Below are positions 1,362-25,547 of a DNA stretch of 25,547 bases, piece by piece (the stretch's first letter is position 1; the number at the start of each line of letters is the position of its first letter). Where the stretch lies: the IMG/VR virus record IMGVR_UViG_3300005515_000054, positions 1 to 25,547 of that record; one strand, given 5' to 3'. A model generated the notes under the pieces. That model saw only the letters and a list, made by a program, of their open reading frames with translations. It was not told the DNA's origin and did no database searches. The position numbers and the translations under genes were made by a program. This DNA is from a virus.

Positions 1362-2204
1362 ATGACCGCTGAACAGCAAGGGACCTCTACCGGTCGCATC
1401 GATGCGATCGCGGAGCGCTTCGCCTCGAGGTGGCGCGACTGCCCGCCGATCCATGTCGTGGCCACGGCTGCCGACCTGCCCTTCCCCGCTCCCGCCGATG
1501 CCGAGGGCGCCTTCCGGCGCGGCGAGACCTACCTCGTCGCTGGAGCACTGGACCAGCACCGCGCCGTCGAGGTCATCGCTCACGAAGTCGTCGGTCATCA
1601 CGGCCTGCGCCGGACGCTCGGCAGCACCTGGCGGTCCTTCCTGGCCAGCACGCTTGCCGGCACCCGACGCGACCCAGAGCTGCGGGCGGCGCGCCGGCAC
1701 ATCGAGCAGATCTACGCGGCCGACGGCGACACCATCGCGCTGTCCCCGCTCCGCCTCGCCGACGAGATCGCGGCCACGATCGCGGAGCGCTCGGTCGACC
1801 CGAGCACCGGTGCGATGGCGGTGGCGCGGCCGCTGCAGAAACAGGCTGCCGCCGTCGCTGGCCACGTTGCGCGCGAAGTGCTGCTGATGGACCGGCCGGT
1901 GTGCGCCGACCAGTTGCAGGGCACGGTGCTGCTAGCTGAGCGACAGCTCCGCGTCGGTGGGACTTTCTTCGGCTGGCGGCGCCGAGTGGCCCACTGGTAT
2001 GCTGGATTCATGGCGTACAAGTTCGATCCCAACGCCCGCCCGATGAGCCTGCAGGAGGCTCAGGATCTGCTGCGCGCCGAGAACACGCGCCTGCAGACCA
2101 AAGAGGACAACAAGGTGATGGCGCACCTCGGCCTCGCCGCCCTGCTCTTTGCGGTGTTCGGCGGGTCGGTCATCCTCATGATCGTGCGGGGCCTCAGCTC
2201 GTAG
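1362..2204 (+). CDS. Zincin-like metallopeptidase-type phage protein with C-terminal membrane segment
   Basis: This is the only rightward gene in the window (280 residues from the ATG; a TTG five codons upstream at 1347 is an alternative, and neither has a clear ribosome binding site). It carries AHEVVGHHGLR, a HExxxH-type motif that I recognise from zincin-like domains of phage and plasmid polyvalent proteins, where variants such as HEAVGHYGLR recur. The two histidines and Glu would be the metal ligands and catalytic base. An Ala-rich helical region follows, and a hydrophobic segment fills the last 25 or so residues, suggesting membrane anchoring. An internal in-frame ATG at 2010 could start a 64-residue membrane-only product. 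The 3' end overlaps the convergent minus-strand gene by 11 bp (2194-2204). Substrate unknown. Confidence 0.7.
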   Translation: MTAEQQGTSTGRIDAIAERFASRWRDCPPIHVVATAADLPFPAPADAEGAFRRGETYLVAGALDQHRAVEVIAHEVVGHHGLRRTLGSTWRSFLASTLAGTRRDPELRAARRHIEQIYAADGDTIALSPLRLADEIAATIAERSVDPSTGAMAVARPLQKQAAAVAGHVAREVLLMDRPVCADQLQGTVLLAERQLRVGGTFFGWRRRVAHWYAGFMAYKFDPNARPMSLQEAQDLLRAENTRLQTKEDNKVMAHLGLAALLFAVFGGSVILMIVRGLSS

Positions 2205-3537
2205 CCGAGACCTCTGCGCTGGGGAACTGCTTGGCTTCTTCGAGCAGCTGATTCAGCGGCGCCGCGAACCTGATGACGCGCACCGGCTCTTCCTTCGCGA
2301 GCGCGGCCAGCCACTGATGGTGTCCATCCAGGACGTGCCCATCCGAAGAGACCAGAATCGAGCGCTCGCCTCCCTCACGGCTCGCCGCTTCGGCGACCTT
2401 GGTCCGCGACCAACAGGCCTGCGTGGGCTTCAGGTCTTCCGCCGCGATCTCGGCCTGCTCGTGCGGGATGCCGCGCGCCAGCAGGAACTGCGTCAGCGCG
2501 CCGCGATGCTCGGCGCGGATCTGCGGCATGTCCTCGCGCGCAATGCCCCGGTGACCACTCTCGGCAGGAAAGTCGTGCCAGTCGTCCTCTACCCCGCCAG
2601 GCCCTCCGCCCTGGCCCGGATCGCCCTGATCACCGCCGCTACCGCGCGCCGCAGCCGCGGGTTCGATTCCAGGGTCGTCGCCAGCTTCTTGGTCTTGGCC
2701 AAGGTATCGCCGGACGGCGTCTTCTGCAGGTAGGCCATCGAGCACGCTCCTCGCCGCGGTCATGATGTCGCTGATCTCGTCGGGGCGGTCCGCGCTGCCC
2801 GCCAGGAACGAGAAAATGTCCTTGGTCTCCGGGCTGATCCCTTCCTCGGCATCGAGGTCCAGCTCGCCGCCAGCGATCGCCCGCGCCAGTTCGGCGGATG
2901 ACTCCAGCATCACCGGCGCCAAGTCGACGTCGGCGAGCTTGCGTCCCACGGCGGCCCGGTCGGTCGGCGTCGTGCGCACCCTCACCAGCACCGGCTTGCG
3001 CAGCTCGTCGACGACCGCAGGATCGATGCCCAGCCCGGGCGCCTGCTCGCGCAGGAACTGCCGGTAGTCCTCTGCCTTCTGACCGTCGGCCAGGAAGATC
3101 CGCGCCAGCGCGATCGCTCGAGCGTTTCCGTCCTCGACGTGGCCGTCCTCGCCGACGACCGGCGCGCCCTCGCCCGCGGTCTCGGCGGGGCCAAGCCGCG
3201 TCGGATCGAAGTTGCGCACGATGCCGCCCACGCGCTGCTCAAGGTCGGCCCGCTCGCGCTCCGGCGTCGCGATGCCAGCATCGTGCGCGTCGCGCGCATG
3301 GAGATCGGCGTCGTGGGAGGCCGTGATGTCGCCGAGGTCGACGACGGCGAACTGGCCGGCGAGGCCGTCGCCGTCGGCGTCGTTGAACCAGGTCACCGCG
3401 CCCGGGGCGCTGCCGGCCCGCGGCGCTGCCGGCGCGAAGACGTCGGCATCGGTGAGCACGCTCGGCGCCGGCGACTCGCTGGCCGGCTCGACAGCGCCGA
3501 AGACCTCGGCGTCGGTCAGAGGTTGCATGTCGCTCAT
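2194..3537 (-). CDS. DdrB/ParB-type polyvalent protein
   Basis: This 447-residue protein is the last gene of the late operon. The start overlaps the upstream stop as ATGA, which fixes it against the much longer in-frame reading to 4365. The N-terminus has two copies of LTDA[ED]VF (residues 7-13 and 28-34). Residues about 60-190 resemble the DdrB-like ParB-superfamily domain of phage polyvalent proteins, including GHVEDGNARAIALARIF and a following KPVLVRVR strand. A Gly-rich low-complexity linker (298-315) leads to a second ParB/sulfiredoxin-like module at about 355-430 with HVLDGHHQWLAAL. Polyvalent proteins with such domains are often delivered with phage DNA, and the position after the internal virion genes fits that, but delivery is inferred. 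Nuclease or nucleotide-binding activity cannot be decided from sequence. Confidence 0.65.
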   Translation of the reverse strand: MSDMQPLTDAEVFGAVEPASESPAPSVLTDADVFAPAAPRAGSAPGAVTWFNDADGDGLAGQFAVVDLGDITASHDADLHARDAHDAGIATPERERADLEQRVGGIVRNFDPTRLGPAETAGEGAPVVGEDGHVEDGNARAIALARIFLADGQKAEDYRQFLREQAPGLGIDPAVVDELRKPVLVRVRTTPTDRAAVGRKLADVDLAPVMLESSAELARAIAGGELDLDAEEGISPETKDIFSFLAGSADRPDEISDIMTAARSVLDGLPAEDAVRRYLGQDQEAGDDPGIEPAAAARGSGGDQGDPGQGGGPGGVEDDWHDFPAESGHRGIAREDMPQIRAEHRGALTQFLLARGIPHEQAEIAAEDLKPTQACWSRTKVAEAASREGGERSILVSSDGHVLDGHHQWLAALAKEEPVRVIRFAAPLNQLLEEAKQFPSAEVSATS

Positions 3538-7508: not shown

Positions 7509-8126
7509 TCAGTCCTCTTGCATGGAGCGGATCGCGTTCATCAGGCCGGGCCCGTTCGGCGCGCGCCCGATGAGCTTGCCCTGCCGGTCGTACAGCAGCG
7601 CCTCGTCGCCGTTCACGCTGATCTGGTGGCCATCGTCGAAACGACCTTGGTTGGCGTTGTACTGGGCCAGGGTGTCGTTGTCCGAGAGCTGGACGTCGGC
7701 GTCGACCGGCTTGATCTCGGTCTGGAGCACCGGGCGCTGCTGGCCGCCGCTGCCTCCGCCGAGCCCGATGTCGCCGAGCATGTCCGTGAAGCCGGTTCCC
7801 GGCGTGCTGGACTGGCCGGCGCCAAGCTGAGACGTGCCGTAGTTGCCGGCGATCGAGCCGGCGATCGTCCGGGCAATGCGGTGCATGTTGTGGCCGGCCT
7901 CGGTGTCGATGCCGGCGGCTTCCGCCTTGCGGTAGGTGTCGGCGCTGGCGCCGCCCCACTGGTCGACGAGCGGCTCATCATCCTTGCCGAGCACCTTGTT
8001 CCAGACCTTCGTGCTCGCCGGGTCGATCCCGCCGTACAGCAGGCGCAGCGGGTTGTCCTTGATCTTGCCGGCGATGCCCTTGAGGTTGAAGCCCTCGAAC
8101 TTCAGGACGTCACTGAGCTTGCTCAT
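7509..8126 (-). CDS. Conserved podovirus virion-associated protein, unknown
   Basis: This 205-residue protein has a conserved-looking N-terminus (DNPLRLLYGGIDPASTKVWNKV, residues about 25-46), then Gly-rich sequence at 98-127 and a C-terminal beta-rich segment (GDEALLYDRQGKLIGR). I remember similar proteins between tail and ejection genes of podoviruses but know no function. I chose the ATG at 8126 over the GTG one codon upstream because GAGGTCCGTG gives good Shine-Dalgarno spacing. It overlaps the upstream S74-domain gene by 17 bp and ends two bases before the next start, so it is coupled on both sides. Confidence 0.55.
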   Translation of the reverse strand: MSKLSDVLKFEGFNLKGIAGKIKDNPLRLLYGGIDPASTKVWNKVLGKDDEPLVDQWGGASADTYRKAEAAGIDTEAGHNMHRIARTIAGSIAGNYGTSQLGAGQSSTPGTGFTDMLGDIGLGGGSGGQQRPVLQTEIKPVDADVQLSDNDTLAQYNANQGRFDDGHQISVNGDEALLYDRQGKLIGRAPNGPGLMNAIRSMQED

Positions 8127-9240
8127 CACGGACCTCGATCATGGGGAAGCCGAGCACGCGGTAGTCGATGCGGCCGTAGCCATCCGGCGTGAAGGACACG
8201 GCCTGCGGGTGCGTCTGCTGGACCTCATGCACCATGGCGCCGACGAAGCGCTGGTGCAGCCCGTGGTAGCGGAAGCTGTAGAGCCGCACGCCGGTGGCGG
8301 CGTCTCGGCCCGCGGGCCGGATGTCGGTCTTGAGCCGGATGTCGGAGAAGGCACCCCACAGCTTCAGACCGGTGCCGACGAGGGAGCCGATGCCGCCGGC
8401 GGTGTCGCCGAAGCTGGAGCCGCCGGATTCGGAGTTCGCCTTGTAGTTGGCCTGCGCGCCCCACATGCTGGTCGCGTTGGTGCCCATCTGCCCGGCCACC
8501 GCCGCGGCGGAGCCGTAGCCCGCGTTCCGGCCGGCCAGCGACGCGGAGGTCAGCCCGACGCCGTTGCCGCCCAGCGCCGCGCCGGTGGTCGTCGCCTGCG
8601 TGCCCATGGCCGGGTAGCCGGCCAGCGCGTTGACGGCACGATCGGTCAGCGCGCGGCCCTCTTCGCGCGCCGCTGTGCGCGCGTTGTTCGCCGCGCCGGC
8701 GCCGGCCACCGTCTGCGTGAGCTGCAGCTGCTGGTCCATGGCCGCCGCGCGGCCGCTCGCCGGGTTGATGCCCATGCGCGCCAGGCTGCGCGCGGACTGT
8801 TCGCGCGCGCTCGATGCCGCCGCATTGACGTCGGCCATCGCCTGGCCAGCGAGTTCCTCGCGGCGGGCCTCGGTGTTGAAGTCCTTGGCTTCCTTGACCA
8901 GCGAGTCCTGCATGCCGCTGAGCTGGTCGCGGCGCGACAGCAGCCACTGCCGGTCGGACTGGGACTGCTCGTAGGCGGTCTTGCTGCTGTCCAGCGCGAA
9001 CTGCAGCTGCTGCTTCTGCAGCGGCGCCAGCTCATTGCTGTTGGCCAGCATCTGCTGGATCGCGTTGTCCTGGATGCCCATGGACTTGATCTGCGCCTCG
9101 ACTAGGCGCGGATCCGGCGCGGGCGCGGTGCTGCCGCCCTTGCCGCCACCCTCGAGCGTCATGCCGCCTCGGCGGCCGGCCCGCGGCCGGAACGCGTGTT
9201 CCGGCAGCAGGTCGAAATCAGTTCGGTGAAACCGTCCCAT
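8110..9240 (-). CDS. Virion protein with C-terminal S74 intramolecular chaperone domain
   Basis: This 376-residue protein has a helical Gln/Ala-rich body (about 40-250) resembling head or ejection proteins rather than a beta-helical fibre. It ends in a compact S74 (endosialidase-type) intramolecular chaperone: SDIRLKTDI at 299-307, then LYSFRYHG, FVGAMVHEVQQTHPQAV, and IDYRVL near the end. In this family the Ser of SDxRLK is the self-cleavage residue and the Lys assists it. Both are kept (Ser299, Lys304), so autocleavage releasing a domain of about 78 residues is plausible. AGGATTGCCGCT precedes the ATG at 9240 and supports it over the internal Met27. It overlaps the GNAT gene's end by 23 bp. 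Calling it a fibre instead is possible, but the N-terminal composition argues against that. Confidence 0.6.
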   Translation of the reverse strand: MGRFHRTDFDLLPEHAFRPRAGRRGGMTLEGGGKGGSTAPAPDPRLVEAQIKSMGIQDNAIQQMLANSNELAPLQKQQLQFALDSSKTAYEQSQSDRQWLLSRRDQLSGMQDSLVKEAKDFNTEARREELAGQAMADVNAAASSAREQSARSLARMGINPASGRAAAMDQQLQLTQTVAGAGAANNARTAAREEGRALTDRAVNALAGYPAMGTQATTTGAALGGNGVGLTSASLAGRNAGYGSAAAVAGQMGTNATSMWGAQANYKANSESGGSSFGDTAGGIGSLVGTGLKLWGAFSDIRLKTDIRPAGRDAATGVRLYSFRYHGLHQRFVGAMVHEVQQTHPQAVSFTPDGYGRIDYRVLGFPMIEVRDEQAQ

Positions 9241-9975: not shown

Positions 9976-11001
9976 TCAGAGCCCCGTGTGACGTGTGACG
10001 AAGAGAGGCGCGGCGTACTGCAGGCTCGAGGTCTCGTTCGAGTCCGCGAGGTATGAGAAGGCCGCGACCTCGTTGGAGATCAGGTTGCCGTCGCTGGTGC
10101 GGTTGAACATCCGGTGGAGCTCACGCATCCGCCAGGTGGCGCCGGAGACGGTGCCGGTGCGCCGGAAGCCGCCGTTCGGTCCGATCACCCCCCAGGTCTC
10201 GCCGGCGTTCCCGACGCCGAAGCTCTGCGATCCAGCCGCCGACGAGATCGTGGGCGTCGCCAGCGCACCGAGTAGCGAGTTCGCGCCGGCCATGAGGTCC
10301 CATGCGAGCTCGCCGTTCTCGCGCTTGACGTAGAAGTACGGCGGCCCGCTGGGCGTCGTCTTGCGGCCGTAGCAGAGGATCCTCGGCGCCGAGAGCGTGG
10401 CGTAGCCAGTGGCGTCGGTCGTCGACTGCGAGCACCGGCGGGCGCGGAAGCGGTACACGGTCGATGATGGCTTCGTGACCTCCAGCAGCTGGGTGTGGAA
10501 GCCAGGGAGCACCTCCAGGACCGGGACGATCGGGATCGACGTCGTGAACTCGAGCGTGTGGTAGCCCATCGACCCGGCGCCAGTGAGGAGCCCGGAGTTC
10601 GCTGTCGTCCCGACGACCGACGCGCTGCCGAGGTAGTAGAGGCCGGTGCCGCCGGGCGACAGCACCAGCGACGACTGGTCGACGCGAGTGGCGGTGATAC
10701 CCGGCACGCCCGTGGAGAGCGATGGCTTCGTCATGGCCCACACGCTGACCGAGTACCGGTCGCCGCCGACCGCCGGCGAGGTCACCCTCGGGTAGCCTAG
10801 GTCGTTGTCGACGGTGTAGCCCCACCCCGGCTCGCCTCGGGCGCCCAGCACCCGGATCGTCGAGCCCGTGTAGCCCGGGAAGCCCTGCGAGAACGCGACA
10901 CCCGAGGGGATGTCGAAGACGCCCAGGCACACGCCCGCCGTCGGAATGTTGTCGGCGTCGAAGATGATGTTCCCGCTCGGGTCGCGACAGATCAGGGTCA
11001 T
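9976..11001 (-). CDS. Tail-associated structural protein
   Basis: This 341-residue protein starts at an ATGA overlap with the long tail fibre gene, which rules out the longer out-of-register upstream reading to 11727. It is rich in Gly, Ser, Thr and beta-strand-like segments. It has a central run ending FRARRCSQSTTDATGYATLSAPRILCYGRK and a C-terminal SNETSSLQYAAPLFVTRHTGL. No catalytic motif or S74-type end is visible. Its position directly after the repeat-bearing fibre gene suggests a receptor-binding tip or fibre accessory, but I cannot assign a family. Confidence 0.55.
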   Translation of the reverse strand: MTLICRDPSGNIIFDADNIPTAGVCLGVFDIPSGVAFSQGFPGYTGSTIRVLGARGEPGWGYTVDNDLGYPRVTSPAVGGDRYSVSVWAMTKPSLSTGVPGITATRVDQSSLVLSPGGTGLYYLGSASVVGTTANSGLLTGAGSMGYHTLEFTTSIPIVPVLEVLPGFHTQLLEVTKPSSTVYRFRARRCSQSTTDATGYATLSAPRILCYGRKTTPSGPPYFYVKRENGELAWDLMAGANSLLGALATPTISSAAGSQSFGVGNAGETWGVIGPNGGFRRTGTVSGATWRMRELHRMFNRTSDGNLISNEVAAFSYLADSNETSSLQYAAPLFVTRHTGL

Positions 11002-12839
11002 GACGAGGAGATCCGGACGGCCTCGGCGTCGTTCCAGTAGAAGACCTGGATCAGGTTGTCGCGGATCTCCACGCGCGCGCCCGACGGCGCGGTGCGCAGC
11101 ACGCCGATCGTGGTCGACACCACCGACAAGCTGCCAATCGACGCGGTGTTGATGTTGGCCAGGTTGACCTGCGCCGTGCCGATCTTGGCGTTGGTGATCG
11201 CGCCATCCTGGATCTTGGCCGTCGTGATCTGCCCGTCCGCGATCTTGGCCGAGGTGATGTTGGCGTCGGCAATCTTTGCGGCCGTGATCTGCGCATCGCC
11301 GATCTTCGCGGTGCTGATGGCGCCGTTGGCGATCTTGGCGGTGTCGACCGCGAGGTTTTCGATCAGCGCACTGCGGATGGCACCGTCCTGGATCGCGGCC
11401 GAGCCAACCGCGATGGCGCCGGCGGCGATCTTGCCGGCCGTGATCGACCCATCGACGATGAGCGACGCGTCGTTGACCTTCTCGACGTTGAGGTTCGTGA
11501 ACCACGGGTTGCCAACGAAGACCGGCTTGTCCGTCCACGGGGCGATCATTAGGCCGACAACGCCGGCGGGGATGGCGAGCGTGGCAACGCAGTATTGCCA
11601 GCCTGCGGCTGTGGTGTTGGCGAAGCCGAACGCGTTCACGATGGTGTTTGACGCGTCGTAGAAGTAGCAGAGCAGGCCCGCCCCGCCCCCGCCGGCACCG
11701 CCAGCGAGGTTCAAGAACACCGAGCACTTGTACTGTTCACCGGCCTGCACGTTGAGCGGTGGCCCAGTCCATGAGTTGTCCCGGTATGTGAACTGTGCGG
11801 CCGTGGGAAACGGACAACCGGCAGGCACAGCGGGGTTGCTCGACGGAAGCCGCTGCACGAAGCCGTTCCACATCGTCGAGCCACCCTCGAAGAAGGGATC
11901 GACGATGAGCGACTTCGGCGCGATCAGCATGTGCTGGGCCCGAATGGCGCCAGCCGCGATTTCACTCGCACGGATCGCACCAGCGGCGATCTTGCCGGCC
12001 ACGATGGAACCGGCAACGATGTCGGCACCGTCCACGTCCTTCGTGTAGGCGGTCCCATTCCAGCGGTAGATCTTCCAGTCCGCGGTGTTGACGATCGTGC
12101 GGGTGCTGAAGGCGCCGGGCACCGAGGTCACGATCGTCACCGGCTCGATGCCGTTGGCGAACTTCGTGAGGTCCACCGCCTGGGCGGCGAGCTTCGCGGC
12201 AGAGACGGCGCCATTGGCCAGGTTCGCGGCCTCGACGATCAGCGGGCCGAGATCGCTGTTGCCGACCTTGCCCGTGGTGCGCGCGATCCCGTTGGTGCCG
12301 CCGGCCGGGACCGACGACTCGACGCCGTCCTCGCTGACCCACTTCAGCCAAATGTGCCAGGTCGTGCCCAGCGTGGTCGGGTGGGCGAAGACGGTGCCGG
12401 TGAACTCGGTGATGAGCTGGGCGGACGAGAACGTCGGCAGCGGGCCGCTCACCCACTGCGCGCCATAGACGCGGGTGCGGGCGTGGCCGTGCCCCTGCGT
12501 GTACGTCGGCAGGTCGTGCTCGATGATCAGGTTGTTGAAGGTGGCCGTGACGTCGACGCCGGTGGGCATGGGGGGCGGTGTCAGGTCGGGCTCCACGGGC
12601 TCACCGCTGCCACCGCCGCCGATGCCGGGCGCCGGCCCCTTGATCGGTGCCTTCCCGCCGCTGCCCACCAAGTAGCCCGCGTTCAGCTCGACCAGGCCGG
12701 CGTCGACGAGGTCGCGCACGGTGACGCCCCGATCAAGCTTGTCGCCCAGGTTGCCGAGGTAGGTCGAGAGCGCCTCCCGGACCTTCTGCTGAAAATTCGG
12801 GCTGTTGACGGTCGGGATGTCCTTTCGGCGGTCAGCCAT
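10998..12839 (-). CDS. Tail fibre protein with J-like region and AKI-repeat shaft
   Basis: This 613-residue protein has an N-terminal anchoring region, a Gly/Pro linker (about 55-75), then sequence like the central/C-terminal parts of lambda J-type host-specificity proteins: EAANLANGAVSAAKLAAQAVDLTKFANGIEPV followed by a TADWKIYRWNGTAYTKDV segment. A carbohydrate-binding-like beta domain sits near residues 340-460. The C-terminal 130 or so residues hold about ten degenerate 10-residue repeats of the type ITxAKIADGx, which probably form a trimeric beta shaft. AGGAGCTCCGCG precedes the ATG at 12839, which lies within the end of the tail hub gene (8-bp overlap). It likely contacts the host surface. 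J-like sequence in an otherwise short-tail virion is a mosaic trait. Confidence 0.7.
   Translation of the reverse strand: MADRRKDIPTVNSPNFQQKVREALSTYLGNLGDKLDRGVTVRDLVDAGLVELNAGYLVGSGGKAPIKGPAPGIGGGGSGEPVEPDLTPPPMPTGVDVTATFNNLIIEHDLPTYTQGHGHARTRVYGAQWVSGPLPTFSSAQLITEFTGTVFAHPTTLGTTWHIWLKWVSEDGVESSVPAGGTNGIARTTGKVGNSDLGPLIVEAANLANGAVSAAKLAAQAVDLTKFANGIEPVTIVTSVPGAFSTRTIVNTADWKIYRWNGTAYTKDVDGADIVAGSIVAGKIAAGAIRASEIAAGAIRAQHMLIAPKSLIVDPFFEGGSTMWNGFVQRLPSSNPAVPAGCPFPTAAQFTYRDNSWTGPPLNVQAGEQYKCSVFLNLAGGAGGGGAGLLCYFYDASNTIVNAFGFANTTAAGWQYCVATLAIPAGVVGLMIAPWTDKPVFVGNPWFTNLNVEKVNDASLIVDGSITAGKIAAGAIAVGSAAIQDGAIRSALIENLAVDTAKIANGAISTAKIGDAQITAAKIADANITSAKIADGQITTAKIQDGAITNAKIGTAQVNLANINTASIGSLSVVSTTIGVLRTAPSGARVEIRDNLIQVFYWNDAEAVRISSS
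11155..11460 (-). repeat. Degenerate 30-bp tandem repeats coding the fibre shaft
   Basis: About ten imperfect 30-bp units (plus-strand pattern like GCCGTGATCTGCGCATCGCC then GATCTTGGC) encode the ITxAKIxDGx peptide repeats of the tail fibre. Such arrays can expand or contract by recombination and change fibre length. Confidence 0.75.
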
Positions 12840-14475
12840 CGCGGAGCTCCTCCAGCGAGTGCGCGAGCGAGACGCCTTGGACCGCGCCGGTGGTCTCCAC
12901 CTCGATCTGCGTCGTGAAGGTCCGGAAGCCGCTGGGCAGCCGCACGGGCTCCGTGCTGGGCACGCTGATGTCGGCCACCTGGCCGGCGTCGCCGAAGACT
13001 CGCAGCGCCACCGGGTAGGCGTCGGCGACGACCTTGGCGCAGGTGAAGCCCGGCACCGGCGCGAGGTGGTCGAAGACCTTGCTGCGGAAGCGTGCCGACA
13101 GCGCGGCACCGGCGTCCCAGCGCTGCACGCTTGTGCCGTTCAGGATGAACATCGCGTCCTGCAGGTCGTCGACGTAGACCGCGTCGGCGCCGACATCGGA
13201 GAAGAAGATGCCGTCCGGGTAGCTGGGGTCCACCATGAACGACGCCTTGACGCCCTCCGCCGGCGAGTAGAAGCCGTAGTAGCGGCCCTCGAAGAAGGCG
13301 CCGATGATGGTCTCCGGTCGCAGCGCCTGCCAGTCGTCGCGGGTCATCGATTGGGCCGTGAGCAGGCGCGGCCCGGCCGAACCGAGGTAGGCCAGACCGT
13401 CAGGCGACGCCCAGGCCACGCCGTGCCCGACGCTCACCATCGATGCCGCCGCGACGCAGGCCTGTAGGAACTCGACGGGCTGCTCGTCCATGCTGTCCGG
13501 CGCGCCGCCGGTGCATACCAGGGGTCGGCCGTTCGTCCCGACCACCAGCGTCTGCCCGAACGCGGCTAGCGCGATCGGCGTGACGTCGGAAGGGGTCAGG
13601 CCGTACTGCATCGGCCACGCCGACGGGGTGTTGGGCTCGCAGAAGCGGATCTCCTGGCCAGAGATTCCAGCGAGCATGCCGTTCCACAACGGCGTCAGCG
13701 AATGCAGGGGCGGCTCGGTGATGTTCAGCGCCCCGCCCTGCGGCACACCGGGCGCCGGGACCCAGGTCAGCGACGGAAGCACCTCGCCGAGCTTGCGGTT
13801 GTCGTCCGTGGTGCCCGTCGCCGTGGAGAGAATCTCTCGCAGGAAGAAGAGGGTCGTGCTGCTCGAGCTGCCGGTCTCGGTGCGGTAGACGCGGATCCGG
13901 TTGATGCCGTAGCTGCCCGCCGGTGGCGCCGAAAGCGCGCTCAGCGTGACCGTGTCGTCGGCCTTGCAGGTGATCGTCGCCCCGGGCGATGGCCAGCCCT
14001 CCTCCCCGATGTCGTTGACATAGGTGTAGGCGTAGATGCGGGTCTCCAGCTCGGTGCTGGTGCCGCCGGCGGCGGCCAGCGTCGGTGCCGCGGCTGGCGC
14101 CGGCAGGCCAAGCGCGCGCCACGCCGTGGGCGGGTTCGCGCCCAGCGCCATCGTCGTGTCCGTCCACTTCGGGAAGCCGTCGCCGGTGTAATAGGTCCGC
14201 TCGCCGCTGTCCGCCGTATTGAAGCCGCGCACCACGCTCGTCGGCGTCGCCCAGCTCAGCCAGTAGTTGGTGTCGCTGACGACATCGCGCCCCATGCGGT
14301 ATATCGACTTCCGGCCCGCTGGCACGACGGCGCGCGCGGCCGGCGCCTTCAGCGGCCGAAGGTCACCGCGGCCCGGCTTCTGGTTCTGCGAGACGACGCC
14401 GATCGCGTCGGGCAGCAGCTTCGGGTGCGGCGCCTTCGCGGCGCCGGCGAAGGTGGCGAGACGGATCCGGGCCAT
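12832..14475 (-). CDS. Putative tail hub / nozzle-type structural protein
   Basis: This 547-residue protein is nearly all beta-strand in character. The N-terminal 60 residues are basic and linker-like. An FN3-like stretch at about 135-215 contains LETRIYAYTYVNDIGEEGWPSPG, a motif type I associate with beta-sandwich domains in phage tail proteins. The central part (about 225-430) has repeated short strands with Gly and Trp, as in propeller-like hub proteins. It lies between the lysis genes and the tail fibre, where podoviruses often encode the tail nozzle or hub. The ATG directly abuts the lysozyme stop (TGAATG), so it is coupled. I do not recognise a named family with certainty; the hub role is inference. 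Confidence 0.5.
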   Translation of the reverse strand: MARIRLATFAGAAKAPHPKLLPDAIGVVSQNQKPGRGDLRPLKAPAARAVVPAGRKSIYRMGRDVVSDTNYWLSWATPTSVVRGFNTADSGERTYYTGDGFPKWTDTTMALGANPPTAWRALGLPAPAAAPTLAAAGGTSTELETRIYAYTYVNDIGEEGWPSPGATITCKADDTVTLSALSAPPAGSYGINRIRVYRTETGSSSSTTLFFLREILSTATGTTDDNRKLGEVLPSLTWVPAPGVPQGGALNITEPPLHSLTPLWNGMLAGISGQEIRFCEPNTPSAWPMQYGLTPSDVTPIALAAFGQTLVVGTNGRPLVCTGGAPDSMDEQPVEFLQACVAAASMVSVGHGVAWASPDGLAYLGSAGPRLLTAQSMTRDDWQALRPETIIGAFFEGRYYGFYSPAEGVKASFMVDPSYPDGIFFSDVGADAVYVDDLQDAMFILNGTSVQRWDAGAALSARFRSKVFDHLAPVPGFTCAKVVADAYPVALRVFGDAGQVADISVPSTEPVRLPSGFRTFTTQIEVETTGAVQGVSLAHSLEELRDG

Positions 14476-15042
14476 TCACTGCACCGCCATGCACCGTTCG
14501 TAGCGCGCGAGCTGCCGCGTCCAGACGCCCATGCAGACCTTGTTGCCGGGCGTCGAGCAGTCGAATCGCCAGGACACGGCGCGCCCGGTCTCATCGCGTC
14601 GCGCGACCTCCCAGCCAGCATGCGGCTCGGACGACGTCATGAAGCGGAACTCGCGCAACTTCTCGCAGGCCTGCGCGTACCGCCCGGCGTTGAGCAGCGG
14701 CGCGAAGTTGCGGCAGGTCGCGCTCATCCCGTACTGGTAGCTGAAGTCCAGGTAGAGGTCGAACTCCTCCTGATGCAGCGGCGCCCGCACGCACCCCTTG
14801 AAGCTGGCCTCGGCCTTCTGCGTGTAGGCAAGGGTGCGCTGCAGCGCTTTCACCGGCGTCGTCCGGTCACCCTCGCGCACCGGGCTGCCGTCGGCATGCG
14901 TGATTGACCCGAAGCCCAGCGTCGGCACGTCACCCTTCACCGGGATCACCGCGGTGTCGGTGTAGCCCTCGTCGGTCGCGAGCCCGACCAGGGCGGCCGC
15001 GCTGAGCACCAGCGCGCCGATGGCGATGCGGATCTTGTTCAT
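14476..15042 (-). CDS. GH24 lysozyme, SAR-type endolysin
   Basis: This 188-residue muramidase hydrolyses peptidoglycan in the periplasm at lysis. An N-terminal Ala/Gly-rich hydrophobic segment (about 5-22) follows MNKIR and runs directly into the catalytic region, as in signal-anchor-release endolysins that are exported by Sec and held inactive in the membrane. Visible motif: EGYTDTAVIPVKGDVPTLGFGS, with Glu25 as the probable general acid, then Asp38 and Thr41. The Glu-Asp spacing is longer than the E-x8-D-x5-T of T4 lysozyme; the usual Asp position is Pro34, as I recall from a proteobacterial phage subfamily. Several Cys residues (66-150) could form regulatory disulfides. GGAG lies 8 bases before ATG, which overlaps the holin stop (ATGA). 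Confidence 0.85.
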   Translation of the reverse strand: MNKIRIAIGALVLSAAALVGLATDEGYTDTAVIPVKGDVPTLGFGSITHADGSPVREGDRTTPVKALQRTLAYTQKAEASFKGCVRAPLHQEEFDLYLDFSYQYGMSATCRNFAPLLNAGRYAQACEKLREFRFMTSSEPHAGWEVARRDETGRAVSWRFDCSTPGNKVCMGVWTRQLARYERCMAVQ

Positions 15043-15296
15043 TCGTCGAGCTCCATGTCGGCGGTGTCCGCGACGGGCCGGCGCGAGAAGCGGCGCTTGA
15101 GCTTCTGGCCCCAGTCCGACTCCTCCCTCCACCACTTGCGCAGCAGGTAGAGGATCTGCAGCACGACGAGCAGGCCGGACAGCACCGCGGCCCAGTTGAG
15201 GCTCTGCCACCACGGCGCCGAGGCCAGCGTCAGTCCGCCGGCGGGCGCGGTCCGCGTCGCCAGCTCGGTGACGATGTCCTTCATCTCTTGCTTCAT
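15039..15296 (-). CDS. Type II (T7-like) holin
   Basis: This 85-residue protein has one membrane segment at about 33-53 (LNWAAVLSGLLVVLQILYLL), a short N-terminal region containing APWWQS, and a long basic C-terminal tail (RKWWREE... KLKRRFSRR) ending in acidic residues. This layout matches T7 gp17.5-type class II holins, which permeabilise or depolarise the inner membrane. Depolarisation would also release the adjacent SAR endolysin. The gene overlaps the endolysin start (ATGA) and begins two bases from the upstream stop, so holin and endolysin are made together. Confidence 0.75.
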   Translation of the reverse strand: MKQEMKDIVTELATRTAPAGGLTLASAPWWQSLNWAAVLSGLLVVLQILYLLRKWWREESDWGQKLKRRFSRRPVADTADMELDE

Positions 15297-18818: not shown

Positions 18819-19364
18819 TCAGCCGTGATCGGACTCTGTCATCCTTGGCACGAGATCCGCAGTGACGAGCGGAAGGAAGTTCCGTCGGCCAAACTCTCCG
18901 TGCTCTGCCAGGCTCGCCAAGTCATAGTGATAGGCCGCCTCGACATCAGATGCGAAGTACCCGACATGCACCCGACGACCGTCGGCGCGCCGGATCTTGA
19001 CTTGCCATGGCTTTCGCCGGCCGACCAACTTGCGGTCGATGCAGACGCCCTTGTATCTGGAGGTTGTGGACTCGGGCGTCTTCTTGGCCTGGTTCCAGGC
19101 GTTCTGGTGCTCGCTGACGAAGCGCAGATTGGATCTCACGCAGTTCAGCGTGTTGCCGTCGATGTGGTCAACGATTTGGCCTTCGGCGGCTCGCATGATC
19201 ATGCGATGGAGGTAGCATTCCTCCCCTGTCGGGGCACGCCACTTGACGTAACCGTGCCCACCCCGCGTCCGCTTGTACGAGAAGGAATGCTCTTTCAGAA
19301 GGTGCAGGTCGCACTCGTCAAGCAGCAGCACGCGTCTTTGATTGATCGCAACCTTCGCAATCAT
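18819..19364 (-). CDS. AP2-domain HNH homing-type endonuclease
   Basis: This 181-residue protein combines an HNH nuclease fold and a DNA-binding AP2 domain. The HNH part (about 45-95) has YLHRMIM, IVDHIDGNTLN, SNLRFVSEHQNAWN, giving the His-Asn-His metal and catalytic residues (His67, Asn79 or Asn75, and the His86/Asn88 area). The AP2 part (about 101-153) runs SRYKGVCIDRK, WQVKIRR, RRVHVGYFASDVEAAYHYDLASL. Such genes are selfish and spread by cutting alleles that lack them. It interrupts the scaffold to capsid order, starts inside the CsrA-like gene (47-bp overlap) and ends with palindrome copy 2 in its last codons. Local base composition is less GC-rich than neighbouring genes, consistent with transfer. 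Confidence 0.85.
   Translation of the reverse strand: MIAKVAINQRRVLLLDECDLHLLKEHSFSYKRTRGGHGYVKWRAPTGEECYLHRMIMRAAEGQIVDHIDGNTLNCVRSNLRFVSEHQNAWNQAKKTPESTTSRYKGVCIDRKLVGRRKPWQVKIRRADGRRVHVGYFASDVEAAYHYDLASLAEHGEFGRRNFLPLVTADLVPRMTESDHG
18837..18850 (-). repeat. AGGA-loop palindrome, copy 2 (end of HNH gene)
   Basis: The minus strand reads TGCCA-AGGA-TGACA, one base different from the other copies, leaving a stem with one mismatch. It overlaps the last codons of the HNH gene. The bases after it (GAGTCCG) resemble those after copy 3 (GATTCCG). It is about 80 bases upstream of the capsid start. Confidence 0.75.
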
Positions 19365-20793: not shown

Positions 20794-21324
20794 TCACTCC
20801 TGTTTGGGTGCGGCGGAATCTGCCATCCTTGGCACGGGCGGCGCGGCCGGGCCGGGCCAGGCCTCGATCAGCGTTCGGACGTCGCTGGCGTGCCGGTCAG
20901 CACGCTCTGCCACTTCGCCATATCGCGCCGCGCACTGGTCGAATACCTCTCGGAAGGCAGCGACTCGGCTGAGACAGGCGCCGTGGGACTCGCCGGACAT
21001 TCGGACGGCAGCGTCGGCCGCGTCGCGCAGGCCGTCGCGCAGAGCGCGAACAGCAGCGACGTCACGCTGCAGCGCCACTTCGCGGCCGCGCGCAGCGGCC
21101 AGGGCTTGATCGACTTGGGCACGTTGGCTCCTTTCCGCCTTGAGGACGTGGCGGATCTGTTCGGTGCGCTGCTCGGCGAGGTCCAAGGCCTGGTCGGACA
21201 TCGCCTTCTGGTGCTTGCCCTTCAGCCCCTCGATCTCGCCGTCATAGCGCCAGCCCTGCACCGTCCACGCCGCGGCGAACGCGAGCACGGCGGCGACCAA
21301 CGACGAGATCAGCAGCGATTTCAT
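20794..21324 (-). CDS. Rz: Rz-like inner-membrane spanin
   Basis: This 176-residue type II membrane protein has an N-terminal signal anchor (about 3-21, LLISSLVAAVLAFAAAWTVQGW) and a long periplasmic helical, coiled-coil-prone region rich in Arg, Gln and Ala (25-110). Cys residues near 115-130 and a Pro-rich C-terminal end complete it. With Rz1 it fuses inner and outer membranes in the last lysis step. I prefer ATG 21324 because the hydrophobic segment starts at once; ATG 21342 and GTG 21351, inside palindrome copy 4, are alternatives. No other Shine-Dalgarno is visible: AAGGA of the palindrome sits 17 bases from ATG 21324. The gene is flanked by copies 3 and 4 and lies far from holin and endolysin. 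Confidence 0.78.
   Translation of the reverse strand: MKSLLISSLVAAVLAFAAAWTVQGWRYDGEIEGLKGKHQKAMSDQALDLAEQRTEQIRHVLKAERSQRAQVDQALAAARGREVALQRDVAAVRALRDGLRDAADAAVRMSGESHGACLSRVAAFREVFDQCAARYGEVAERADRHASDVRTLIEAWPGPAAPPVPRMADSAAPKQE
20821..20834 (-). repeat. AGGA-loop palindrome, copy 3 (end of Rz gene)
   Basis: The minus strand reads TGCCA-AGGA-TGGCA, a perfect 5-bp stem with AGGA loop. It falls within the last codons of Rz, giving the peptide VPRMADS, close to VPRMTES at copy 2. It is about 30 bases upstream of the 20790 start. Confidence 0.8.
20868..21122 (-). CDS. Rz1: Rz1-like outer-membrane spanin lipoprotein, embedded in Rz
   Basis: This 84-residue frame lies wholly inside Rz in another reading frame, the classic Rz/Rz1 layout. 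It starts with GTG at 21122, directly after AAAGGAGCCAAC, one of the best ribosome binding sites in the window. The N-terminus is basic (KSIKPWPLRAAAKWR), followed by a hydrophobic stretch and a lipobox ending in Cys32 (LCATAC). The mature part is short and Pro/Ser-rich (TRPTLPSECPASPTAPV), as in known Rz1 proteins. It would be lipid-anchored in the outer membrane and pair with Rz. It is normally missed by gene finders because it is nested. Confidence 0.8.
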   Translation of the reverse strand: MPKSIKPWPLRAAAKWRCSVTSLLFALCATACATRPTLPSECPASPTAPVSAESLPSERYSTSARRDMAKWQSVLTGTPATSER

Positions 21325-21335
21325 GGCGGGCCAGC

Positions 21336-21351
21336 GTGCCATCCTTGGCAC
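21336..21351 (-). repeat. AGGA-loop palindrome, copy 4 (before Rz)
   Basis: The minus strand reads GTGCCA-AGGA-TGGCAC, a perfect 6-bp stem with AGGA loop, the longest stem of the four. It lies nine bases after the tailspike gene stop and 11 bases before ATG 21324 of Rz. It contains an in-frame GTG (21351) and ATG (21342), so it overlaps all possible Rz starts. Confidence 0.82.
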
Positions 21352-21360
21352 GGCCGTCGA

Positions 21361-23451
21361 TCAGATCCCGTAGGCCTGCTTGTTGAGCCCCGAGAACGTG
21401 ACGACCTGGCAGGTCCCGGCGATCTCCTGCGTGCGGATGTAGTCGCACAGGGAACCGAGCGCAGTCAGCGCCTCACCACCCGCATTGAACTCGCCATGAC
21501 ACGCGAAGACGGCGACGCCCTTGGCAGCGATCGCTTGGTCGACGTGATCCTTCCAGCGGTCGTACACGGTGCCCGCGGTGAAGCCCGACGTCATGTTGAG
21601 GCACCGGATGTTGTACGGGTCACCGTAGGGAACGGTCTCGGCTGAGCGGAACGGATACTGCGCGTTCTGGCCGTTGGCGAAACGTCGCAGCGTCGCCAGG
21701 GCCCGCTTGGCGGCCAGGGTCCGCTCCTCGTCGATGTTGGTCACCGTGCCCGAGCCATAACTGCCGTTCTGCGTCTCGTGGATCCCGATGCGGTTCATCG
21801 CCAGGACCCACTTGCCGACCTGGCGCATCCAGTCCTCGGGCGAAAGGTTGAAGCCGGTCTCGTTCTGGTAGACCTGATAGGCGACCTCCCAGCCGTAGTC
21901 CCGATGCATCTTCGAGATCTGCTCCGGCGTCAGGTAGCCCGTCTGCCCCATCTTCACCGTCGTGTCCATGCAGAGGACGCCGGGATAGTTGAACCTCGAC
22001 ATCAGGGGCAGCGCGTTGTTCCAGGCGCCGTCGTGCAGGTCGTCGAAGGTGAAGATCACCGAGCCCTTGGCCAGCGCGTTGGGCACGAAGTCCAGGCTCA
22101 CGGGCCGCAGCTTGCACCCGTTGGAACTGCCGCCGCCGGTGATCTTGATCCGAGCCCACTTGATCGACGCCAGGTCGGCGCCGGTTCCGGTCGCGGTGAA
22201 GTGGCTGATCGGCAGCGAGAAGCAGCGCAGAAGGTTGTAGCCCAGCACGGACGCGCCCATGAAGCCTTGCCAGAGCCCGTTCAGGTTGGGGCTGGTGTGG
22301 AAGTTGGCGGTCGGCGCCGCCGGCGTTCCTGCGCTGTGCAGTTCGATGTAGAAGCCAGTCGGCCCGTTCACGCCGAAGTTGTTTCCGGCGTTGTCCGGCC
22401 AGCAGTGGGTGAAGTGAATGCTGCCGTTCTGCACGTCGACGCCAGCCGCCAGCGCTGTGCCGGGCGCGATCGAGACCTCGGCGGTCTGCGTCTGCGTGTA
22501 TTCGACGATGGAGGTGCCGAATGCCAGTTCGCCGTTGGCCGCGTTGGCGAAGTCGGCAGCCCGGTTCGTCACAACGTCCGCCGTCGTCAGCCAGCGCGCC
22601 AGCGGCACCGGCTTCTTGCGCAGGCGGTGGACCGGCCGCAGGTTGCCCAGCGTCAGGACGCTCCCGGCGGGCATCAGGTTGGGATAGTTGAACTCGCCGT
22701 TGACGATGTCGGCATCGGCCGAGATCATGTCCGCGCGCTGCGTCAGCAGCATCGAGGAGTTCGGCCCGGCGGTCCAGCACTCCGCCTCCAACGGCCGCGC
22801 TTGCCGCGCGATGCTATCCACGGCCTTCTGCTGGACTTGGTTGGCATTGGTGATGCCCAGGATCAGCGCGGACTCGCCGTGCCGGACCTTGTACTCGATG
22901 CCGGCGCCACCGATGCGGAAGAGGATGTCGTGTTCCGCGGCGTTGTTCAGCTCCATCGCCGTGCAGGCCAGGTTGCCGAAGGCAACATAGGCTCCGCCTG
23001 CCACCGCCAACGACAAGGTGCCGGCGAAGGTGTACGTGTCGGTGCGGGTCACGGCCATCGCCGAGATCGTCGTCGGCTGCGTCCGCCCGCTGACCGCCCA
23101 GTCACTGCGCCGGAATCCGATCTGGTTGGCGTTCGTGATGCCGGCAAACCGACGTCGCTGCCCCGCGAGCAGCGTGATCACCGCTCCAGCGCCATTGCGC
23201 TGGAACTCGATCGGGACCCGCTGGTCGTTGAAGACCTCCAGCTCGGTGCAGGCCTGGTCGGGGAAGACGGCAAAGCTGCCGTCGGTCGGCGTCGCGCTCG
23301 ACGTCGCCTTCACCGCGCCCCGGGCGGTCTGCGATGGCAACGTGCCGCCGCCACCGATCGGACGCTTGTCCCCGGGCCTGACCTGGTAACCGGTGACGGT
23401 CCCGTCGTCATCGACGACCCACTCCACATTGCGATTGACGCGCTCAGCCAT
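21361..23451 (-). CDS. Tailspike-like protein with C-terminal NodB-like domain
   Basis: This 696-residue protein lies between portal and spanins. After a short N-terminal region there are two copies of a domain of about 53 residues (63-115 and 158-209) sharing ACTxxE, GAG and GITNANQ. A beta-rich central part (about 215-460) follows. Residues 464-690 resemble a CE4 NodB polysaccharide deacetylase: VIFTFDD (468-471), then a PYG region (PFRSAETVPYG, 600-610) and VAVFACHG with His652 near the end. The second metal motif, normally His-Thr-x-x-His, appears as QVYQN (526-530), so the usual metal ligands look replaced. It probably binds or modifies host capsule or O-antigen, or is a binding relic. 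GGAGGCCGCA precedes ATG 23451. Confidence 0.65.
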   Translation of the reverse strand: MAERVNRNVEWVVDDDGTVTGYQVRPGDKRPIGGGGTLPSQTARGAVKATSSATPTDGSFAVFPDQACTELEVFNDQRVPIEFQRNGAGAVITLLAGQRRRFAGITNANQIGFRRSDWAVSGRTQPTTISAMAVTRTDTYTFAGTLSLAVAGGAYVAFGNLACTAMELNNAAEHDILFRIGGAGIEYKVRHGESALILGITNANQVQQKAVDSIARQARPLEAECWTAGPNSSMLLTQRADMISADADIVNGEFNYPNLMPAGSVLTLGNLRPVHRLRKKPVPLARWLTTADVVTNRAADFANAANGELAFGTSIVEYTQTQTAEVSIAPGTALAAGVDVQNGSIHFTHCWPDNAGNNFGVNGPTGFYIELHSAGTPAAPTANFHTSPNLNGLWQGFMGASVLGYNLLRCFSLPISHFTATGTGADLASIKWARIKITGGGSSNGCKLRPVSLDFVPNALAKGSVIFTFDDLHDGAWNNALPLMSRFNYPGVLCMDTTVKMGQTGYLTPEQISKMHRDYGWEVAYQVYQNETGFNLSPEDWMRQVGKWVLAMNRIGIHETQNGSYGSGTVTNIDEERTLAAKRALATLRRFANGQNAQYPFRSAETVPYGDPYNIRCLNMTSGFTAGTVYDRWKDHVDQAIAAKGVAVFACHGEFNAGGEALTALGSLCDYIRTQEIAGTCQVVTFSGLNKQAYGI

Positions 23452-23469: not shown

Positions 23470-25547
23470 TTACGCGGCCGTCGCCGCCTTCTCGCCCCGT
23501 GCGTCCTGCGCAGAGCTCCTCTCTTCGATGGCGGCGAGACGGGCTTCCAACACCGCGACGCGCTTGTCACTGGCGGCCTCGATCTCCGCGACGCGCAGCT
23601 TGGTGTCGCGCTCGATGTTGGCGACCTCCAGTTTGACGTCGGCGTCCTTGCGGATCTGCAGCGTCCGGTTCGTGAGCTCGGCCTGTGCCTCGCGCAGTTC
23701 CTCGCTGAGCTGCTCGATCTGCTGGGCGGCCTGCTGCCGGATCTGGCCCAGGGCCTGTTCCAGCGCCGGATCGATGCCCTCCCCGCCCGCGGCGGCGGCG
23801 GCCTCGGTCTCCAGCTTCAGCGCCCGGGCGTTGATCTCGCGGACCTTGGCGCGCTGCTCTTCGAGGGCGGCGATCGCGGTCTCCCGCTGGTACTGGAGCG
23901 CCTCGGCCTGCTGGGCTTGCTGGGCCTGCATGGCGGCCTGCTCTTCGGGCGTCGGTTCCTTGTTGGGGTCGCGGTCGCCGGTCATCTTGCGGATCTGGTC
24001 GGCGATCTCGTCCTTGTTGGGCAGGTCCGAGAACTCGAAGGCCAAGGTCAGCAGGCGCAGCGCGACCTCTGGCGGCAGGCGCTCAGCGATCTTGCTGAGC
24101 GAGTCGAACATGACCTGGCGCAGCGTACCGGCGTAGTCGGCCTCGGTGACGATGAAGTCCGCGATGCTGGCCGTGATGTCGTTGAGGTAGCGCACGGACC
24201 CGTCGGCCTGCTGCTCCGGTTGGTTGATGCGCAGCCACTCGATGGCGCCCTTGGCACCGGTGAGCCGCACCACCTTGGCCTCGGTGTAGAACTGCTCGGT
24301 CAGCGACAGCTGCTTTTCCCCCTGGACCTGCGTCGAGAAGCGCAGGTTGTCGAAGGGCTCGGTGGTGCTGACGCTGCCCTGGATCTGGCGGCGCTCGATC
24401 GCCGCACCGCTGACCGCGTTGGTCTGGCGGCCCAGGTTCTCGTTGTTGACGCCGGCGCTGCGCTGGATGGCCTGCGCGCCGAGCTCCATCATCTGGATCT
24501 GACCGGTCGCGGCATCGACGTCGCGCCGGATGTCGAAGGACTTGTTCGCCTTCTTGATGATCATGCCGTCCGGGCGCCCGACCTCGTCGCGCGTCGCCTC
24601 GATGTCCTCGACGGCGCCCTCGTCCATGATGACCTGGTTGGAGTTCATCAGGAACAGGGCCTTCGACGCACGCTTGTTCAGATCCATCTGAACATCGCGG
24701 ATGCGCCGGACGACGCCATAGGGCTGGCGGGTGCGGCCGAAGCGATAGCACCAAGTCGGGGTCAGGCTGAAGCGGTTGTGCCGCGCGATCGACGGGCCGC
24801 GCGACAGCAGCGCGCCCTCGACGAAGACCGCGACGTGCGTGCGCATCATCATGCGGTCCACGATCATGGAGCCCGAGCTGGCCACGGCGTCGGCCAGCAG
24901 CTGATCGCCCTCGTTCAGGATGGCGCCGGCGTGCGGACCATCGCGCACCACGCGGACCTTGGTCGGAATCCGGTACTGCGCCTCGATGAGGCGCACGCGC
25001 CGGCGCTCGGTGTCGATGGTGGTGCCGCTACCGTAGGCGCGCAGCGTGCCGCTGCGGTTCTCGGCGTCGAGCGGCGACTGCCAGCCGTCTTCCTCCTCCG
25101 GGTCGACGTCACCCCAGAAGGACGTGTCCTCGGCCGCCTTGCGCACCGCATCGGCGCGGTCGGGGAACATCATCACCGCGATGTCCACGTCGACCCATCG
25201 CCAGCGGAACAGGTAGCGACCGTCGTCGATGTCGAGCTCGTAGCTTCCCCGGCTGTCCCAAATGACGTTCCGCCAGTCCTCATACTTGCTGTAGAGGACG
25301 TCCTTCGTCGGGTCGTCGCGCGGCCCGTCATCCTGCCAGCCGACGCCGACCTTGATCGCGTCGGCGAAGGCCCGGGAGCGGTTGAAGACGACGCGGTTGA
25401 CGTCGCTCACGTACTTGAGCACCTTCGTCTTCACGTCGGCGATCTGCACGTCGTCCTCGGTGCGTGGCAGCACCTTCCAGTCGACGCGCGTGCGGCGCTC
25501 GGTGCCGATGAGCCAGTCGCACAGCGGCGCGACCTCGTTGTAGACCA
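23470..25547 (-). CDS. Portal protein, P22-like (5' end outside window)
   Basis: The reading frame is open from its stop at 23470 to the right edge; the internal Met at 25473 is not the start, because TERRTRVDWKV precedes it in frame. The visible 692 residues include ADVKTKVLKYVSDVNRV and SRAFADAIKVGVGW near the visible start, a wing/crown region with RWRWVDVD, and MIIKKANKSFDIRRDVDA mid-protein. The C-terminal 150 residues are a long Gln/Ala/Glu-rich coiled coil. This fits the P22-type portal, a dodecamer at one capsid vertex through which DNA enters and leaves; its C-terminal barrel extends into the head. The tailspike gene starts 18 bases downstream. Terminase should lie beyond the edge. 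Confidence 0.82.
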   Translation of the reverse strand, partial: VYNEVAPLCDWLIGTERRTRVDWKVLPRTEDDVQIADVKTKVLKYVSDVNRVVFNRSRAFADAIKVGVGWQDDGPRDDPTKDVLYSKYEDWRNVIWDSRGSYELDIDDGRYLFRWRWVDVDIAVMMFPDRADAVRKAAEDTSFWGDVDPEEEDGWQSPLDAENRSGTLRAYGSGTTIDTERRRVRLIEAQYRIPTKVRVVRDGPHAGAILNEGDQLLADAVASSGSMIVDRMMMRTHVAVFVEGALLSRGPSIARHNRFSLTPTWCYRFGRTRQPYGVVRRIRDVQMDLNKRASKALFLMNSNQVIMDEGAVEDIEATRDEVGRPDGMIIKKANKSFDIRRDVDAATGQIQMMELGAQAIQRSAGVNNENLGRQTNAVSGAAIERRQIQGSVSTTEPFDNLRFSTQVQGEKQLSLTEQFYTEAKVVRLTGAKGAIEWLRINQPEQQADGSVRYLNDITASIADFIVTEADYAGTLRQVMFDSLSKIAERLPPEVALRLLTLAFEFSDLPNKDEIADQIRKMTGDRDPNKEPTPEEQAAMQAQQAQQAEALQYQRETAIAALEEQRAKVREINARALKLETEAAAAAGGEGIDPALEQALGQIRQQAAQQIEQLSEELREAQAELTNRTLQIRKDADVKLEVANIERDTKLRVAEIEAASDKRVAVLEARLAAIEERSSAQDARGEKAATAA

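Follow-up and report, generated by a model that had tools for sequence, protein, structure and literature searches.

CE4 proteins that lack the metal-binding histidines have been known one by one; the fixation of this loss in a clade of phage virion-type proteins is new. The clade is described here from one member, a 696-residue protein encoded in a stretch of viral DNA of 25,547 nucleotides (the window). In its C-terminal barrel, predicted to have the CE4/NodB fold, a glutamine stands in place of the first motif-2 metal histidine and no histidine stands in place of the second. What the first-pass annotation observed was confirmed, in that the open reading frame (ORF) is genuine, the CE4 fold is clear in the model and both metal histidines are absent; its interpretation is supported in part. 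Our best guess is a non-metallo CE4 barrel that would bind a host glycan.

A full-text search of PMC, covering open-licence papers, turned up no account of a phage protein that is CE4-like yet lacks the metal site. The viral polysaccharide deacetylases reported from mangrove soil all keep their metal sites (PMC6460857), which sets the clade with the glutamine (the Gln clade) apart.

Gene and predicted domain layout

The ORF on the minus strand has an ATG start and no internal stops. Its product is 97% identical to a relative on a Roseateles chitinivorans contig and about 70-72% identical to relatives on two IMG/VR contigs (L003 and L010), and it has weak matches to minor tail proteins of Gordonia phages. 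A DNA-pattern search for YQVYQNET and PYGDPYN found no additional family members, and a search of plasmids for relatives returned only haloarchaeal proteins annotated as polysaccharide deacetylase. The gene product is a modular phage surface protein, presumably carried on the virion, and is laid out with its neighbors as follows.

21361..23451, minus strand: whole gene, phage surface (adhesin-like) protein of 696 aa with a CE4-fold C-terminus (ORF, model, 97% relative)
23092..23316, minus strand: small beta "anchor" domain of phrog_19032 type, first copy, residues 46-120 (profile match, model)
22768..23043, minus strand: second, diverged anchor copy, residues 137-228 (phrog_19032 match, model)
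22081..22623, minus strand: jelly-roll, galactose-binding-like/CBM-like domain, about residues 277-457 (within the match to the turret of a Haloferax virus, HFTV1)
21364..22074, minus strand: CE4/NodB-fold barrel, about residues 460-696 (model, structure and profile matches)
23470..25547, minus strand: P22-like portal gene, directly upstream in transcription (Pfam, profile match)
20794..21351, minus strand: Rz-like spanin gene, directly downstream in transcription (profile match)

The phrog_19032 match to the protein falls into two stretches, and the strand order in the model is alike in both copies. Residues 46-120 superimpose on a model of Erwinia phage S6 gp049 at 1.1 A with 36% identity. 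No solved structure was identified for the anchor domain; its best match, Z 8.6 over 77 residues, lies in the range of common arrangements. In Erwinia phages the homologous small domain (S6 gp049, PEp14_0004) has a gene to itself, and the next gene is a separate and unrelated one, whereas here it occurs twice within one protein. The Erwinia partner genes PEp14_0005 and S6 gp050 were considered as split-off CE4 domains and rejected, as inspection of their sequences found no CE4 motif. The galactose-binding-like domain matches CBM11 at a borderline Z of about 9.

The Pfam family Polysacc_deac_1 (PF01522) matches the C-terminal region below its gathering cut-off of 23.1 bits, with 18.7 bits over residues 461-555 for the whole protein and 21.4 bits for the domain alone; it matches six of the seven members of the Gln clade, with E values up to 1. 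Profile-profile comparison finds CE4 relatives at E 1.6e-26. A first structural model (residues 236-696, from 7 sequences) was poor, with a mean pLDDT of 54, and its best PDB match was the HFTV1 turret, spanning both domains. A second, full-length model from 17 sequences was used instead; it is of medium confidence (mean pLDDT 68.7) and weak at residues 530-535, 566-579 and 604-608. This model, too, is closest to the HFTV1 turret (Foldseek E 9.7e-15; Z 22.9, rmsd 4.8 over 359 residues and two domains), and it also matches 3RXZ (Z 17.4), PuuE allantoinase (Z 16.1) and, at Z 14-16, a large number of CE4 enzymes, pseudoenzymes included. The CE4/NodB fold proposed for the C-terminus is thus supported as far as prediction goes, with matches to CE4 structures at Z 14-17, and the structure prediction that had been suggested as a check gives this fold and not a different one.

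A replaced metal site fixed in one clade

The placement of metal-site residues rests on strand positions in the model together with alignments. The modeled barrel strands span residues 463-470, 492-495, 522-527, 562-565, 587-589, 615-619 and 646-651, so that D470 ends strand 1, Q526 lies at the end of strand 3 and S564-G566 at that of strand 4, and H652 directly follows strand 7. The residues at issue are these.

22039..22044, minus strand: D470-D471, motif 1 (TFDD), invariant (clade alignment)
21874..21876, minus strand: Q526, replacing the first motif-2 metal His; Gln in 7/7 clade members (alignments, tree)
21862..21864, minus strand: N530, aligned with the second metal His under canonical HxxxH spacing; variable in the clade (alignments)
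21853..21855, minus strand: G533, aligned with the second metal His under H-x6-H, the spacing in the nearest phage relatives (alignments)
21754..21762, minus strand: S564-Y565-G566, motif-3 position, Pro to Gly (alignments)
21613..21621, minus strand: D611-P612-Y613, invariant in the clade, loop before strand 6 (alignments, model)
21496..21498, minus strand: H652, motif-5 His, invariant in both clades (alignments)

A profile led by the window protein places Q526 and N530 on the two motif-2 histidines of the solved CE4 enzyme 6dq3, the same pairing results when the Gln clade by itself is profiled against 7ax7, and profile-profile comparison with CE4 relatives sets the Gln column on the His column. 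The assignment of Gln526 to the first metal histidine therefore stands. For the second, the earlier choice of Asn530 holds for canonical spacing only, because the motif-2 histidines of the nearest phage relatives lie seven residues apart, which aligns the second of them with G533; under either spacing no metal histidine is present. The late histidine had been read correctly, H652 being the motif-5 histidine, and in the TFDD motif, which supplies the catalytic base and a metal Asp in CE4 enzymes, D470 and D471 are invariant in the clade. The PYG once taken as a CE4 motif had been misassigned: alignment and its location between strands 5 and 6 rule out residues 608-610 as motif 3, which is the SYG at 564-566, where the canonical motif contains Pro. 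Arg is absent at that position in the window protein, and two clade members (L066 and L067) have an Arg near it. D611 is a possible motif-4 Asp, the residue by which CE4 enzymes tune the motif-5 histidine, in a loop where model confidence is low. An alternative His pair at the metal site, named beforehand as the observation that would count against this picture, was sought in the clade alignment and ruled out, H652 being the only histidine conserved throughout. The protein thus retains the fold, motif 1 and the motif-5 histidine of CE4; it is described here as CE4-like and not as a CE4 deacetylase because motifs 2 and 3 of the enzyme family are lost.

The Gln clade comprises seven proteins, from the window, the Roseateles contig and contigs L003, L010, L066, L067 and L100, the last three of them fused relatives found by a scan with the N-terminal domain. 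Their identity to the window domain ranges from 96 to 26%. In all seven, Gln occupies the first-His position, the second His is missing and the motif-3 Pro is Gly, while D470, D471 and H652 are kept and D611-P612-Y613 and N619 are invariant. In nine of nine phage relatives that share the two-domain plan, these columns hold His, His and Pro. A maximum-likelihood tree, which also took in HFTV1, two haloarchaeal proteins and one Arthrobacter phage protein, gives the clade one origin with support 100/99; sequence counts within it are therefore not independent events, since they reflect one old change that has been kept. The clade is under purifying selection, with domain Ka/Ks values of about 0.06 against the Roseateles relative (Ks 0.326, Ka 0.019) and about 0.2 against the 72% relatives L003 and L010. 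Six of 13 invariant polar or aromatic positions fall at the strand ends of the barrel mouth, where 1.6 are expected (p 0.002, indicative only, as the mouth positions were picked on the model with the alignment already known). The invariant polar set at the mouth consists of D470, D471, Q526, S564, N619 and H652, with D611 and Y613 nearby. On the sequences compared, loss of the metal histidines is a feature of the clade and not of one decayed gene.

Comparable CE4-fold proteins differ in detail. EcCDA (2VYO), a CE4-family protein of Encephalitozoon cuniculi matched by the model at Z 15.1, likewise lacks both motif-2 histidines, but it is a cellular protein and has also lost the catalytic Asp that the window protein keeps; it was judged probably inactive (PMC10967932). 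BA0330 and BA0331 of Bacillus anthracis have the CE4 fold and bind peptidoglycan without deacetylase activity (PMC4505593); unlike the window protein they are lipoproteins of the host cell wall and keep the zinc triad. BoPDA and CtAxeA have an incomplete triad and bind metal through a His-Asp dyad (PMC11713874), and each retains one motif-2 histidine, unlike the window protein. The residue set seen here, with the base Asp and acid His kept and both metal histidines gone, matches none of these.

The HFTV1 turret plan and location on the virion

The turret head of HFTV1 combines a galactose-binding-like domain with a CE4-like zinc domain and was proposed to bind and modify host glycans (PMC12494034). 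The model of the window protein matches this domain plan, and HFTV1 gp31 (PDB 8QPG) is a virion surface protein with the same two domains in which the CE4-like one is C-terminal. The two proteins differ at the metal site, where gp31 keeps HxxxH (HGYNH) with zinc sites and the window protein has Gln, Asn and Gly, and in their attachment, gp31 sitting on a separate turret base, gp30, whereas two phrog_19032 domains are fused N-terminally here. Turret heads of the HFTV1 type are trimers, which a turret base seats on the hexamer of the major capsid protein. Because it has the same two domains, the window protein may, by analogy, work like a turret head or a head fiber.

The HFTV1 plan was described as apparently evolved specifically for that virus (PMC12494034). 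The plan of gp31 (L026:15056-16297) recurs at L020, L021, L022 and L030-L037, in many actinophage-type proteins, and this recurrence speaks against such specific evolution. Proteins of Gordonia and Arthrobacter phages (Orchid gp35, Forza gp90, Eyre gp26 and Gorpy gp36) have the same two-domain order at about 16-25% identity, with both histidines (H-x6-H) and the motif-3 Pro kept. The design had been called uncommon, which holds only in part, since the combination is found in a dozen actinophage-type proteins, several of them annotated as minor tail protein, as well as in HFTV1.

Across relatives the gene is found mostly in head or packaging modules. The portal gene precedes it in the window and in L065, and precedes a stand-alone anchor gene in L099; a large terminase gene adjoins the fused gene in L003, scaffold and neck genes flank it in L066, a terminase/tail-completion neighborhood surrounds it in L067, and in L010 it lies between head genes and an internal-virion gene. 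An intein/Hint domain (Pfam Intein_splicing, Hint_2) lies close to the C-terminus of the L003 large terminase (L003:3882-5726). Within the window, the Rz-like spanin gene (20794-21351) is placed within the head module, with the CE4-like gene on one side and a putative scaffold gene on the other, away from the lysozyme gene (14476-15213), and an HNH endonuclease gene (HNH_3, 18819-19364), possibly a homing endonuclease, separates the major head protein gene from the putative scaffold gene. The window also encodes an SRAP (SOS-response-associated peptidase) protein (71-823), a ddrB-like ParB domain amid large virion-type ORFs (2194-3393) and a virion structural protein (8110-9240) that ends in a Peptidase_S74 (chaperone of endosialidase) domain and also matches a DNA ejection protein family.

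Relatives of phrog_19032 are encoded at 50 loci, in many phages as a stand-alone gene. The gene that follows encodes a GDSL esterase in L106, a GDSL esterase with an F5/8 galactose-binding domain in L101, a Gly-rich domain protein in L099 and an unrecognised product at other loci. The GDSL/SGNH esterase genes (L101:4288-5910 and L106:4264-5568) make the pairing of an anchor gene with a glycan-module gene a repeated one across phages. Gene order suggests a common attachment unit in the N-terminal modules and an exchangeable glycan-handling part in the C-terminal one.

These neighborhoods bear on the earlier description of the protein as a tailspike, which is unproven. Attachment to a short tail instead of the head, a rival on location and not on chemistry, has an appreciable though lesser chance of being correct. 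In its favor, the portal of the phage is P22-like, none of the ORFs examined was recognised as a tape-measure gene, the actinophage relatives carry the minor tail annotation, and in L010 the gene precedes not only the internal-virion gene but also a long putative tail-fiber-like ORF. However, the gene has portal, terminase, scaffold or neck/tail-completion genes as neighbors in the window and in L003, L065, L066 and L067, no solved structure comes closer than a capsid turret, and the window has a separate tail-fiber-like gene (10998-13109). An adhesin resembling a turret or head fiber fits better than a tailspike.

Possible functions of the barrel

We give roughly even odds to a surface protein, displayed on the virion, that does without zinc-dependent deacetylation and whose old cleft holds a host glycan; virion presence, head position, glycan binding and the absence of catalysis are what we infer. 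A short N-terminal attachment stretch and the two anchor copies are followed by the galactose-binding-like domain and then by the barrel, which has lost its zinc site (Gln/non-His for His/His, Gly for the motif-3 Pro) and keeps the polar mouth. From the virion surface, possibly that of the head as in HFTV1, the protein would hold a host surface glycan in the former deacetylase cleft as a first, reversible adhesion step, from which zinc-dependent deacetylation would be absent. Consistent with this, the metal histidines are missing in all seven clade members and in none of the nine two-domain phage relatives, the single origin and Ka/Ks well below 1 go together with the enrichment of invariant polar residues at the barrel mouth, and elsewhere a stand-alone anchor gene directly precedes a gene for a putative adhesin or esterase. 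BA0330 and BA0331, EcCDA and the HFTV1 turret serve as precedents, and the fold matches also count in favor. The first-pass annotation had offered an inactive, glycan-binding domain or an unusual site; a non-catalytic or unusual site agrees with the loss of both histidines, and the conserved, clade-wide swap is what it had not seen. Binding sites of receptor proteins usually vary with the host. The polar set here is invariant down to 26% identity, which also fits fixed chemistry, and the base D470 and acid H652 are kept, whereas EcCDA, judged inactive, lacks the catalytic Asp as well.

Because the polar mouth is invariant, a metal-free enzyme is kept in play, at a probability we consider clearly on the low side. 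D470/D471 and an H652-D611 pair, with Q526 as a substrate ligand and no His-His-Asp zinc site, would carry out metal-independent ester or amide hydrolysis or glycosidic cleavage of a host glycan. The conserved base and acid residues suit this reading, as do the GDSL esterases among partners of the stand-alone anchor gene, but two metal ligands and the motif-3 Pro and Arg are absent from the window protein. We know of no enzyme with this residue set. PuuE allantoinase offers a precedent for metal-independent chemistry on the CE4 fold (PMC10967932). It is a good deal less probable that the clade is, in full, a metal-free glycan-processing (hydrolase- or glycosidase-like) CE4 barrel with invariant D470, D471, Q526, D611, N619 and H652, borne on head turrets whose domain plan is common with an archaeal virus.

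A metallo-deacetylase with an unusual site, in which fewer or other ligands hold the metal as in BoPDA and CtAxeA or as in the second site of PgaB, is more doubtful still. The PgaB site reportedly consists of the motif-1 Asp and the motif-5 His, and D470/D471 and H652 are kept here. Dyad sites are known, and that of CtAxeA is active (PMC11713874), but BoPDA keeps the motif-2 histidine that is Gln in the window protein, and the clade has no other conserved histidine. Simple decay, with the domain retained only as a spacer, is very improbable: motifs 2 and 3 are gone and the Pfam score is below threshold, but Ka/Ks is well below 1, the origin is single and ancient, the same Gln, Asp, Asn and His persist in distant relatives, and a swap shared with other fixed changes by the whole clade speaks against it. 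As the swap is kept in distantly related phages, the barrel gives the impression not of a broken enzyme but of a site that has settled into glycan binding or been re-tooled.

A clade with a conserved replacement site provides a clean test of whether a deacetylase can become an adhesin or a metal-free enzyme in a phage, and the turret-head domain plan described for HFTV1 (PMC12494034) is extended to bacteriophages. Phage "polysaccharide deacetylase" genes are sometimes listed as auxiliary metabolic genes (PMC6460857); such annotations call for caution, as these genes may sometimes encode non-catalytic parts of the virion.
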